Source of the DNA: Mesostigma viride
Taxonomy: Eukaryota > Streptophyta > Mesostigmatophyceae > Mesostigmatales > Mesostigmataceae
Direction of reading: 5' to 3'
Assembly: GCA_009746045.1 (NCBI GenBank)
Contig: RPFO01000022.1
Location: 4,570,702 to 4,634,701, forward strand
DNA length: 64,000 nucleotides
Both the position numbers and the translations under genes were made by a program. The notes under the pieces were generated by a model. It searched no databases, was not told the origin of the DNA, and worked only from the letters and a program-made list of their open reading frames with translations. Shown here piece by piece: positions 9,188-18,100 of the stretch. Position 1 is the first letter of the stretch, and every line of letters begins with the position of its first letter.

Positions 9188-12100
9188 TCAGTTCCAGCGC
9201 TTGGCGTTCTTGTTCTGCTTCCCCTTGGCGTTATTTGCCTGGTAGCTCTGCGCCTTCTGCTTCTTGATAGCCAGCTTCTCCGCCTGACCAACACACGCCC
9301 ATGCACAAGGCGAAGAGGAATCATGACAAAAAAGAGAGCGTGAGCATCTCCGCCTGACCAACACACCGATATGCATTACATGCGATCCGAACCACCGCCC
9401 CCGCCAACCTACCCCCCCAATCACCAAAGTACCGTGCAACATGCAAAAAACAAAAACCAACTACAAAAGAATGCATGCAAGCGTCCCTTCTCCGCCTGAC
9501 CAAGAGAGCAAGTGCCACACGCAAGTTGCGGCCCAAGGAATATGACAGCCAAAAATGTGACTGAAACATGACTAGGGTATATACGCAGATTATATAATGG
9601 CAGGATCGAGCTACCAGGGTGACGGTCTTCCAGATATCAGGCCAGCGCTGGATGTCTCATCGATACCACTCAGTGGCCCCCTCACCTTGGACGAATTGCG
9701 ATTCGCCAAGATGTTCTCCCCTGATGCCCTCTCTCACGTTTTCTCCCCATTAATTCTTCCTTATTCCCCCCTCCTCCTCCCCCCACACCTTAGTCTCGGC
9801 CTCGATGTTCTCCTCCACCACCTCCCCCCCGATGTCTCAAATACTGCCATGCGCCCATACCCGCCTTGGACATCCTGGATGTGGCCTTGCTCTATTACTA
9901 TCATTGGTGTGATTAGCATTATTAACAGCAGCGTCATTAAGAGATGTGGCCGCTCACCTTGGACATCTTGGACTTTGCCTTGATGTTCTCCTTCTCGATC
10001 TCCAGCGCGGCCGCCTCGCGCTCCGCCTCCTTGGCGGCCACCGTCTCGTTCTTGTACAGGTAGTACTGGTGGCCGGCACAGGATGCAATTACGGGGCGGG
10101 TGACAGCAACAACAAGAGGAACCACAGCACGCACAGGGCGCATTCGCGAGGATGCCATCAGCGATAAGAAATACGAATTGATAGGGAATACGGCAAGCAC
10201 ATGACACATTTATCCGGTGGATGAAAGCAAGCACAGGACACAATCGTCACCCTCTTAGTGGACAACCTTGAAACCCTAGCACATCTCACACTCACAAGGC
10301 ATGTCACCGATCACCGTACCATGTTTTTTCCCAACTATAGTCGCAGAAATACCCCCCCCCCTCTTCCCCCTCTTTACATCATAGTCCCTTTTGTAGCTCA
10401 AAACCCACAATCACCCTCCCAGCCCACGTTGCAGTTACAGTCCATCCCCCCCGCTCCTCACCGCCCAACCCCACCCTCACTCACGTCATGCTGAGCCTTG
10501 CCGTCCACCACCTTCAGACCCCGACACATCCAATTCATGAACTTGGCCATTACAACCACACAACCACGCCCCCCCCACTCATTTCATAGTCCCCCTTCTC
10601 GTTGACCACCTTTGGACCATCAAAACAAACAAGTCATAAGCACGGCCGTCATCATAACACACAAAAATACGCCCATCGCTGGCCCCCTGGCTATCAGCCC
10701 CGCACCACTCCATATTGAAACACTACTCACGTCATAGTCACCCTCGTAGTCGACCACCTTGGCGTCCCGGATCTCCACCACGCGTGTGACGATCTGGCGC
10801 AGGAAGTAGCGGTCGTGCGAGACGGCCACAACGCTGCCCTCATACGAGCGCAGTGCCTCCTCGAGCATCTCCTTGGTGGGGATGTCCAGGTGGTTGGTCG
10901 GCTCGTCCAGCACCATCAGGTTGGCCTTGGTCACCATGAACTTGGCGAGCGCCAGGCGCGCTTTCTCACCACCAGACAGCCACTCAACCTTCTTGTGGAC
11001 CTCCTCGCCCTTGAATTGGAACCGGCCCAGCAGCGCCTGGGGATGGGGGGCCGAATCGAAGAAGCGTTTTAAGTTGTTGAGACAAGAAAGTCCCAGAGAG
11101 CCAAAAGGAGCCTACCAAAGGGACCAATAGGGGACGGATGGGGGGCGAAAGGGGAGGGAAAGGGGGACCGAAAGGGGACGGAAAGGGGACGAAAAGGGGA
11201 AGGGGGCGAAAAGAGGAAGGACAGGGTGTTTGGCACACAAGAAGGATGTGGCGAGGGTCCGGCCAGCCAAAGGTCGGATGGGCGGCACCAGGCTAACGAG
11301 GCCACATCAGGCAAGGGAGGGCAGACCAAGCCTGCGATGCTTCTTGTGGTGCATCAATCCAGGATGGAGGTCGCTACCCAATGACAGGGTTTGTATCGCG
11401 TGCCAGGGTGCTCCGTGACAGTTACAATTCTCAAACGCTAAAGAACATAAATAAAACATAATATTTAGGCCTAGGAACATATACTCTTCCAAGGGAGGCA
11501 TGTGAATGAATGAACCTCTTCTCGGACATGGTCAGGTACCATTGTTCGACTCCATGCAGGAAACCAATCGATGGTTGAGACGTAGCCCTGGCAGAGCACT
11601 CCCCGTTGCAAGGGTATACAGTGCCTGCGTCATCCGTCTGTGATGCACTACAGCTGGTCTGCAGGGTGGTATGGCAAAGTGGCCAGTGGCCTGCTGTCGT
11701 GGCCTGATGTATTGGCCAAGAGTGAAAGAGTGCTGCACCAAATGTAAGTACCTTCTACACATGCGGCACAAAACCTGTGCCAGGAAGCCAAGGAGCAGAC
11801 AGGTGAGCACGGCAGCCTATCGTGCAAAGGGAAGGCTGAGATCTGTTAAGTACCGTACTTGGCTCTGGAGGGAGGGAGGGGGGGAGGGGGAGCCGACACA
11901 GAATGACGGGAATCGGAATACATTAAGCTGGATTTATTCTGCTCGATTTTTTCTCCCTGACTCATTCTGCTGTAACCCTTTCCGTGCGTTTACATCTGCT
12001 GGATTCCTTCTGCAAGACGTTTGTTCAAGGAGATGGCATGGTCGCCCGCCCTACTGCCACACCGCCCTACTGCCACACCACCCTACTGCCACACCACCCT

Positions 12101-15100: not shown

Positions 15101-18100
15101 GGGGGCGGAACAAGCCGCGGACAAGTGTACTCTCCTCACCTTCAAATCATTACATCCACCCACACCCACGCCCTAACGCTTTCCAAGGCAGCCACATTAT
15201 TAAGCCGGCAGCCCCCCACCTGGTTTGCAAGGAAACCGTTAAGGCGGTTGGAATCCACTTATTCTAGTTGCACTGCCCACAACCACACCAAGGAGCACAA
15301 GCTGCTCCTTCCTGCCCCCCCCCCTGTACCCCCAGAATCCACCTTGTTGCACCTCTGGTTGAGCAACGTTCGATCGTGCGAGACAATACCCATCAGGTGG
15401 ACCCATTGCTCTCTGCTCCATGCATCGCCCACCCACCCACCCACCCACCCACCCACCCACCCACCCACCCACCCACCCACCCACCCACCCACCCACCCAC
15501 CCACCCACCCACCCACCCGCCCGCCCCCGCCCGCCCGCCCGCCCGCCCGCCCGCCCGCCCGCCCGCCCGCCCGCCCGCCCGCCGCGCCGCCCGCCCGCCC
15601 GCCGCCCGCCCGCCCGCCCGCCCGCCCGCCCCGCCCGCCCGCCCGCCCGCCCGCCCGCCCGCCGCCGCCCGCCCGCCGCCCGCCCGCCGCCCGCCCGCCC
15701 GCCCGCCCGCCCGCCCGCCCGCCCGCCCGCCCGCCGCCCGCCCGCCCGCCCGCCCGCCTGCCCGCCTGCCCGCCCGCCCGCCCGCCCGCCCGCCCGCCTG
15801 CCCGCCTGCCTGCCCGCCCGCCCGCCTACCCGCCCGCCCGCCTACCCGCCCGCCCGCCTACCCGCCTGCCCGCCCGCCCACCCACCATGCATACACCCGA
15901 GACAAGCATGGCAGGCTACTGGCTGCAAAGGGCAGCCGGGTTGCCAAGCTTCCCGCGCACCCACCCTGTTGCACAGCCCGTTGAACAAACTCTACGTCAT
16001 GTGAGGCAATAACCTTCGGCGCGCGTCACCCCTCCCCCATTGCGCCCTCACTCCCCACCCACCCAGCCACAACTAACCCCGCACACTCATGTGCCCACAC
16101 TAACCTTGCTGCACAGCTGGTCAACGAACTCCCGCTCATGTGACACAAACAACATCGGGATGTCGAGGCTACCTCCATCGCACCGTTCCTTTCTCCCACG
16201 GACCAGACCACCCACATGTACCTACACACACATGCCCCGCACCCACCTTATTGCACAGCTGGTTGAGGAACTCCCGATCGTGCGAGACGATGACCATCGG
16301 GATGTCCAGCCCCCGCAGGTACCCCTCCAGCCACGTGATTGCGTCCAGGTCCAGGTGGTTGGTCGGCTCGTCCAGCAGGATCAGCTCCGGCTCCTGGAGC
16401 AGGACTTTACCAAGCGAGATGCGCATCTGCCACCCCATGGAGAAGGAGGCGACGAGCCGGTCTGCGTCGTCGGGCGTGAAGCCCAGCGTGGGAAGGATCT
16501 TGTCAATTTTGCGGTCGATCCTGTCGAACGGGGTGGAGGAGGGAAGGAGGGGGGAAGGAGGGGGGAAGGAGGGGGGAAGGAGGGGGGAAGGAGGGGGGAA
16601 GGAGGGGGGAAGGAGGGGGGAAGGAGGGGGGAAGGAGGGGGAAGGAGGGGGGAAGGAGGGGGGAAGGAGGGGGGAAGGAGGGGGAAGGAGGGGGGAAGGA
16701 GGGGGAAGGAGGGGGAAGGAGGGGGGAAGGAGGGGGGGAAGAGGTGGAGCAGGGGGGAACGGAAGGCCAGCATAGCAACGTTAACAAGGGGCAGGGGGGA
16801 AAGCAAAGCGTGGGCAGAACCTTGTCAATCCTGCGGACAATGCAGGAGGTGGGGAGGGAGAAGAGGGGAAAATTGGGGTCGGGTGAGGGCAGTCAACGAA
16901 AGTACGTCAATGGGGAGCGGGGGAAAGCAACCACGCCAACTGGAATGCGATTACACCAATTTTGATCCGACTAGGTTGTCATCAGTTCTCAAATTGTCAA
17001 AATTGTCACTTTATTCATGCCGGCGGACTACCTACGGACTGCTTGACGCGGATTCGCCGGGCTGCAAGTTTGGTAACTTACCAAAGTCGCAAGCCGTTGC
17101 CGCCGCGCCATTTTCTACTTCTTTTCGCACATGGCTTGCGTTGGGTTCATCGACGCTGGTCGACGGTGCAATCCGACGGCGGAGAATAAGTTCGCCACAG
17201 CACAGCGCGACGCAAGGGCTCTTTTCCATGTACAACTTGAGATGCAAAGTCCGCATCGCTGACCCGAAATTCCGTCCAACACCGCCGTACAGTACTACCA
17301 GTCAACCGCTTATCTGCCTTTTAACCGTCGAATGCGCAATCGATCTAGTTGTTGCTGTTGTTGTTGCCCACGCCGCACACAGGTAGCGGAGATTTGGAAA
17401 CGGCGCAATCGATCTAGAAACATCTCCGCGACACTTCCGTGACTTCAGTACTTTCCGTCACCCTTGACATGTTGTCGTACAATAACACAAATTTATGCCG
17501 ATAGAAACTCGCCTCCAAACATATATCTCGATGGAGGCATGCCTATTATTAAATTTCAAGGTACCTCTAATTAATCTCGGCCCCCGCCCTCTGCTAATTT
17601 GCTAATTTGCTAAAAAAGAGCCAATTTTGATCCGACTACACCGGCGACTGGCTAATTTAACGTACGTAGATTGACATATTCATTGCACATGTTCGTACAA
17701 GTCCACCGCCGTCGCCTTCTGCTGCAGCGCCTCCCATTCATCGTGCTACCAAACGCCAATACGAGCACGACCAGAACATGATGAAAGACTGGCTATTGAT
17801 AACCCACGCACCCGTACAGGTCCACCGCCGTCGCCTTCTGCTGCAGTGCGTCCAGCTCGTCCAGCAGCGCGGTCATGCGCGCCATGTCCGACGTGGCACC
17901 CTCCAGCTCGCCCTCGATCTCCGCCGTGCGCTTCTGCACGGCGAGCGCCTCGGAGAAGACCGAGGCCAGCTCCTCGCGCACTGTGCGTGTGCCGTCCACG
18001 TCGAATTCCTGGGTCAGGTAGGCCACCTGCATGCGGTCGTTCGCACGGATGACCTGGGGGGGGGGGGGGAAGAGCGGAGGAGGTTGAGTTCAGGGAAGAA

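Follow-up and report, generated by a model that had tools for sequence, protein, structure and literature searches.

Decayed exon-edge copies in introns of Mesostigma viride and a probable role of small tandem duplication in intron growth

The lengthening of introns is usually credited to transposons. Introns can also house minisatellites, or variable number tandem repeats, which are built of tandem units, form arrays and undergo turnover. Here we describe a window of 64,000 nucleotides from the green alga Mesostigma viride (GenBank assembly GCA_009746045.1, contig RPFO01000022.1, positions 4,570,702 to 4,634,701), in which introns of the gene ABCF5 carry decayed copies of the edges of their own exons. 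The M. viride genome paper credits intron length to repetitive elements, which make up 30.1% of intron space (PMC6947507). Among short insertions (<100 bp) of the human genome, small tandem duplications are described as the most frequent kind, and they can originate when breaks with complementary overhangs are end-joined (PMC8355091). The potato RdRp gene gained an intron when a tandem duplication spanned one of its intron-exon boundaries (PMC4974935), and within-gene duplication affecting gene structure is cited both there and in PMC3443670.

The copies in M. viride resemble small tandem duplications in being direct and adjacent; those of the published work were studied in mouse and human cells, whereas here serial ladders are fossilised in the introns of an alga and their cause is something that we infer. 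The likeness to potato RdRp lies in a duplicated segment that crosses the junction, the difference in that a single event produced a new intron there, while existing introns were lengthened repeatedly in several genes here; and unlike the within-gene duplications cited above, the present copies remain intronic and decay. With intronic minisatellites they share tandem units, arrays and turnover, but here the unit spans a splice junction, selection preserves one of the copies, and most ABCF5 ladders lie below the Tandem Repeats Finder score used. Among the literature titles and abstract openings searched, we found no description of ladders of this sort, serial and decayed, at the exon edges of many genes within a single genome. 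The type of mutation is ordinary; its frequency, its intronic ladder form and its possible donor bias are not. We propose, with a probability of roughly 0.7, that the introns of M. viride lengthen by recurrent small tandem duplications, which sometimes cross a splice junction.

Copies of exon edges in ABCF5

ABCF5 lies on the minus strand of the window at 9188-20706 and has nine exons and eight introns. From first to last the exons, all on the minus strand, occupy 20200-20706, 17812-18053, 16247-16520, 14407-14745, 12908-13087, 12120-12200, 10731-11036, 9958-10065 and 9188-9283. The best protein match to the gene is an M. viride model (P0001; eukprot jgi/Mesvir1/13157) that is identical over the full query, and the spliced translation of the nine exons holds P0001 complete, letter for letter. 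The splice sites of all eight introns therefore do not depend on our judgement alone, P0001 being itself a gene model and not RNA evidence. P0001 begins with MEADKGEV near the end of exon 1, and the frame is open upstream to an ATG at 20706, so that the public protein looks N-terminally truncated. The top ABC-F matches outside the window, on contigs C2011 and C2022, are long uninterrupted frames of 33-37% identity, possibly from bacterial contaminants.

Each exon edge was compared, as an exon-only 60-mer, with its own intron and with 200 dinucleotide shuffles of it. The donor edges of introns 2, 3, 4, 7 and 8 (z = 25, 23, 7, 9 and 7) and the acceptor edges of introns 2 and 4 (z = 10 and 19) were equalled by none of their 200 shuffles, which places 7 of the 16 edges far above the shuffled intron, the comparison that a preliminary description of the window had proposed. 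The other nine edges are about null, the highest being the donor of intron 5 (z 2.5, equalled by 6 of 200 shuffles). Mid-exon controls gave a mean z of 0.06 and a maximum of 4.2 in 49 tests; in a separate run on ABCF5, two of eight mid-exon tests were unmatched by any of 100 shuffles (z <5), and the mid-exon control is thus not quite flat. Edge 60-mers scored at shuffle level both against the reverse complement and against the other introns of ABCF5. When the queries were extended 12 bases into the intron and a copy was called above the 99% quantile of 300 shuffles, 19 copies passed the threshold in ABCF5. A blind self-comparison of the window (E 0.01, offsets <1600 bp) returned eight local direct repeat pairs in the gene and no inverted ones, and we classify six of these pairs as touching an exon edge. 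We regard the exon-edge copies in ABCF5 introns as confirmed. The preliminary description had placed such copies, in the orientation of the exon, at 15 positions: the orientation holds throughout, only direct copies being found, and 13 of the positions coincide with the 19 significant copies (two of them lying 1-2 bases outside the aligned stretch), while those at 14372 in intron 4 and 10375 in intron 7 were picked out by eye and correspond to no significant copy.

All copies lie on the minus strand. On the donor side, the end of exon 2 (-42..-1) recurs in intron 2 at 17694-17734, with 38 of 41 bases identical, 119 bp from the donor and with its splice site lost. Intron 3 holds three copies of the exon 3 end with the donor, at 16094-16167 (-63..+11, exon part 49/63, 142 bp from the donor), 15953-16019 (exon part 38/54) and 15331-15397 (exon part 44/55), the last reached past a 458-bp tetranucleotide array at 15426-15883 that separates it from the second. 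Copies of the exon 4 end with the donor follow one another in intron 4 at 14295-14329, where the intron part of the unit is homologous too (z 11.9), 14266-14290, 14195-14227 (exon part 21/24) and 13921-13944 (exon part 16/18), with tetranucleotide arrays at 13967-14150 between them and at 13679-13889 beyond the last. In intron 7 the exon 7 end is found with the donor region at 10577-10612 (GT changed to AT), with a GTGAGT donor at 10473-10514, and as a gapped copy at 10243-10312; in intron 8 the exon 8 end is found at 9864-9889 (donor GT changed to GC), at 9785-9825 and, with the donor, at 9673-9719.

On the acceptor side, the start of exon 3 (+1..+49) is copied in intron 2 at 16794-16841 (36/48), upstream of an 11-bp array at 16535-16759 that stands between it and the acceptor. 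The start of exon 5 recurs in intron 4 at 13166-13205 (-7..+33, exon part 31/33, AG lost) and more weakly at 13517-13546 (-7..+23, exon part 18/23, equalled by 1 of 300 shuffles), and the acceptor with the start of exon 9 recurs in intron 8 at 9487-9503 (17/17) and 9343-9365 (22/23, 70 bp from the acceptor). The copies at the donor of intron 2, the three at the donor of intron 8 and the two at the acceptor of intron 4 are additions to those described earlier; the simple arrays said to separate copies are present in introns 2, 3 and 4. Some repeats lie within the introns themselves, namely a tandem duplication in intron 5 at 12305-12451 (70-bp unit, 80%), which touches no exon, and 33-bp tandem repeats in intron 3 at 14757-14906, which end 11 bases before exon 4. 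Tandem Repeats Finder detected the internal arrays.

Edge copies at other genes and their decay

The wider sample came from the same single assembly, of 439,911,974 bases, and consisted of 24 stretches of 6 kb, each chosen around a partial match to a protein kinase that pointed to a gene of several exons; it was not random. Exon models are de novo except for ABCF5 and part of one locus, L060, and some initial and terminal exons surely have false edges. Our exon finder recovered 7 of 7 internal ABCF5 exons exactly, but as ABCF5 had served to train its codon model this does not count as independent validation. Copies of the 50-bp edge in the adjoining intron were found for 16 of 68 donors and 6 of 67 acceptors, one further acceptor being set aside as low complexity, and these 22 of 135 edges are spread over 11 of the 24 loci. 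At the same threshold the controls were empty, whether inverted (0/68 and 0/67), taken against the wrong-side intron (0/61 and 0/60) or mid-exon (0/50 and 0/50). Such introns are rich in simple arrays, from which one might suspect chance or low-complexity matches, but the contrast of 22/135 edges with 0/356 control tests (Fisher p 1e-13) refutes that reading, whose probability we put close to nil. Edge copies are thus not peculiar to ABCF5 and occur at unrelated genes of the genome too. ABCF5 is richer, with copies at 7 of 14 predicted edges (p 0.007), as expected for the case that drew attention.

A second sample of kinase loci, L009-L038 (43 non-redundant of 48 predicted exons), gave 3/26 donors, 0/33 acceptors and 0/176 controls; it is left out of the figures above because most of its loci, having long open frames, were judged single-exon, which weakens the edges predicted for them, and because two of its three donor matches span just 15 and 18 bases. 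The thresholds were set by us, and some edges pass one run and fail another: the L043 acceptor (5191-5295) passed the first run and failed the final one, the L041 donor (1862-2027) did the reverse and barely passed, and a poly-histidine exon of L045 gave an acceptor match in the first run that is presumably the acceptor later dropped as low complexity.

The clearest ladder sampled belongs to L060 (C1106:2443500-2449499), a CDPK-like gene in which the donor follows ...DGILSIK and copies of it stand 92, 184 and 300 bp further on. The public protein P0121 includes the predicted two-exon peptide of this locus in full, runs past the outer donor into a further exon and reads DGILSIK then ELSEG, so that the outermost donor is used and the downstream copies are skipped. 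It also extends upstream of the first acceptor of our finder in the same genomic frame, and that acceptor is false. In ABCF5 and L060 alike, the public models splice at the outer site and the copies fall within a single intron. Elsewhere, on contig C1107 at about 0.65-1.31 Mb, same-strand kinase frames, mostly of about 1040-1270 codons, form a long run that is likely a tandem gene array.

Decay was followed in 53 copies of 30 edges, that is, the 29 edges of the main test and the hand-added acceptor of exon 9. Their mean exon-part identity is 0.847. The preliminary description had spoken of increasing decay, and over the whole set identity does drop with distance (Spearman -0.38, p 0.005); from one copy of an edge to the next the order is looser, identity falling 13 times and rising 10. 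Mismatch rates at codon positions 1, 2 and 3 are 0.137, 0.132 and 0.185, and the modest excess at position 3 (p 0.005 against positions 1 and 2) is what slow synonymous change in the exon would produce. GT is retained in 23 of 40 donor copies and AG in 7 of 13 acceptor copies, the state of the site being extrapolated in copies that end short of the junction. These surviving dinucleotides could be taken as a sign that copies are kept for a role in splicing, as decoy or backup splice sites or as regulatory elements, but retention is no higher than the identity of 0.847 predicts (0.72; p 0.053 and 0.21), positions 1 and 2 diverge equally, and the majority of tested edges have no copy. Such a role is very unlikely, and the equal divergence together with the predicted retention makes the copies look like unconstrained decay.

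We scanned 53 introns and their exon borders in 36-bp windows, each compared with its intron. Direct copies occur in 0.10-0.12 of windows in the deep intron; young repeats (at least 90% identical) occupy 0.09-0.10 of windows more than 300 bp from a junction against 0.11 in the last 25 exon bases, and 0.00 to 0.10 in the intron bins closer to the junction. Exon sequence more than 50 bp from the border had copies in 0/468 donor-side and 0/441 acceptor-side windows, and inverted copies were found in 0/4793 windows, with no inverted high-scoring segment pair in the 53 introns. The repeats form 43 families: 23 internal (extending no more than 8 bases into an exon), 14 donor-crossing and 6 acceptor-crossing, to which ABCF5 contributes 4, 3 and 1. 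The earlier proposal that introns grow by repeated duplication of the exon-intron junction is therefore borne out as to repeated duplication, with edge copies at unrelated genes too, but not as to the junction being the thing duplicated, since deep intron repeats are about as frequent and 23 of 43 families are internal.

The sense orientation of the copies and their closeness to exon ends would also suit copying from RNA, by way of a reverse transcript of the pre-mRNA or mRNA; tandem duplication gives the same orientation, however, and intron interiors are duplicated as well, so that RNA templating is highly improbable. A mobile element or introner family that inserts exon-like pieces has a precedent in the introners documented in diverse eukaryotes (PMC9860276), but the matches to ABCF5 edges lie in the edge's own intron and in none of the gene's others. 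Moreover, only 13 of 1378 pairs among the 53 introns share repeats (E 1e-5, the longest 416 bp), and by eye the shared stretches look like dispersed or simple repeats, none being judged a whole intron; we consider such a family extremely improbable.

Tandem units, spaced copies and the donor side

The nearest copy lies at a median distance of 110 bp over the 30 edges, and for 18 of them within 90-122 bp. At the L043 donor a 101-bp tandem unit has an intron part identical across the 50 bases compared, the 92-bp unit at the L060 donor is identical across 33 bases compared, and a second donor of L043 has a 136-bp unit that is homologous with gaps. The repeats are direct and adjacent or nearly so, as small tandem duplications are. 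No special or new element is needed, the youngest cases being ordinary tandem duplications. Clustered pairs of repeated 11-mers in introns thin out past about 150 bp; at offsets below 120 bp we sum 114 in 47 kb of intron against 6 in 27.5 kb of exon, and below 160 bp there are 129 in 47.2 kb of intron, 56 in 39.6 kb of the window at 21.0-60.3 kb and 49 in 54 kb of the outer 900 bp of L009-L038. The process is thus denser in introns yet not confined to them.

Under recurrent small tandem duplication, the duplicated unit measures 92, 101 or 136 bp in the young cases with whole units, a wider range of some 20-150 bp being suggested by the repeated 11-mers. When a segment is duplicated across a junction, the gene would still function if the original outermost splice site kept its use, and the inner copy would then be free to decay; public protein models show such outer-site use for the ABCF5 introns and one CDPK intron. 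Further rounds would build ladders, with the nearest copy usually some 90-120 bp away, and arrays of 4-11 bp units may expand between the rungs. Tandem repeats within exons are rare, presumably because they are purged. The constancy of the exon would keep old copies readable while the intron part of the unit fades first, which our simulation bears out only partly. As to the molecular cause, staggered breaks or paired nicks may, for example, have been filled in and their ends then joined, by analogy with small tandem duplications elsewhere.

Several results weigh against this reading. Among donor copies whose exon part is at least 0.80 identical, just 2 of 15 had a homologous spacer (z at least 4), as did 4 of 24 copies when donors and acceptors are pooled, whereas tandem duplication simulated with indels under six settings gave 0.33 to 0.73; compared with the setting richest in indels, the deficit does not reach significance (p 0.08). 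Within ABCF5, homology of the intron parts holds between the first two units of intron 4, between its fourth unit and each of these, and between the first two units of intron 7, while in introns 3, 7 and 8 it is missing from the majority of unit pairs. The exonic portions are short, with copies in 0/98 windows at -75..-50, 7/131 at -50..-25 and 19/98 at -25..0, which is shorter than we would expect from a randomly placed 100-bp unit. Nor do introns with edge copies (n=19, median 790) differ significantly in length from those without (n=34, median 698; p 0.38).

Either turnover of the intron spacers is more rapid than our model allows, or short, spaced copies make up part of the set. The latter would arise if break repair or template switching copied 20-60 bp of nearby sequence, an exon edge with its donor, and pasted it about 100 bp off, the spacer never being duplicated. 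A simulation of spaced copies gives spacer homology of 0.12, near the observed 2/15; short exonic portions fit it as well, and copies with exon-part identity of at least 0.90 and no significant spacer homology exist at L049, L056 and ABCF5 introns 2 and 4. The weakness or absence of full-unit homology in ABCF5 outside intron 4 and the first pair of intron 7 keeps this alternative alive. However, the youngest cases, at L043 and L060, are full tandem units, and in 12 of the 23 internal families, by our count, the best aligned stretch covers at least 85% of the repeat offset. Templated insertions commonly yield inverted copies, and there are none here. Spaced copying is rather unlikely.

A further difficulty for duplication placed without regard to the junction is an excess at donors. 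In simulations, 42 of 78 donor-crossing, 36 of 75 acceptor-crossing and 178 of 538 internal duplications were detected, and part of the junction signal is thus a matter of detection, the exon copy being held constant by selection. After correction for this, donor-crossing families (14/43) remain about twice the expected 16.4% (p 0.007), a result that is contingent on the simulation and to which ABCF5 contributes three families; acceptor-crossing families, 6/43 against 14.1% expected, show no excess. Edges with copies likewise number 21 of 75 donors against 8 of 74 acceptors when ABCF5 and the kinases are combined (p 0.012), and 16/68 against 6/67 without ABCF5 (p 0.034). A duplicated donor would keep the needed site first in the transcript, whereas a duplicated acceptor would set a competing site ahead of it; false acceptor edges like that of L060 could depress the figure for acceptors too and account for part of the difference. 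Growth by small tandem duplication perhaps has a donor bias. A stronger version, possible though doubtful, is that 5' splice sites are favoured starting points of intron growth, the exon end and donor being duplicated repeatedly, at steps of about 100 bp, as forks stall or breaks linked to transcription or splicing occur immediately downstream of the donor. If so, the introns of this lineage would be seeded at donors and preserve the history of their growth in a form that can be read and dated.

Other features of the window and significance

An open frame at 60414-61349 on the plus strand matches N-terminal glutamine amidase (PF09764, E 8.1e-53). Coding-like stretches at 37458-39267, also on the plus strand, look reverse transcriptase-like by eye; somewhere among the 119 frames scanned (of 191 listed), 3 match RVT_1. 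The window further contains a tandem repeat at 42262-43339 (401-bp unit, 2.7 copies, 96%), an (ACA)n array of 1.4 kb at 3998-5425 and, at 62035-62564, an inverted repeat of about 172 bp (95%) that flanks a 99-bp tandem pair. An Rfam scan of the window returned nothing at gathering score.

For M. viride, the ladders make visible a second route to long introns, beside repetitive elements. Because the exon is a constant reference, every worn copy can be aged, and one genome could thus yield both the tempo of intron growth and the rate of unconstrained change. The ladders could also show how the spliceosome passes near-identical duplicate sites, and the difference between donors and acceptors may be a natural test of splice-site choice.

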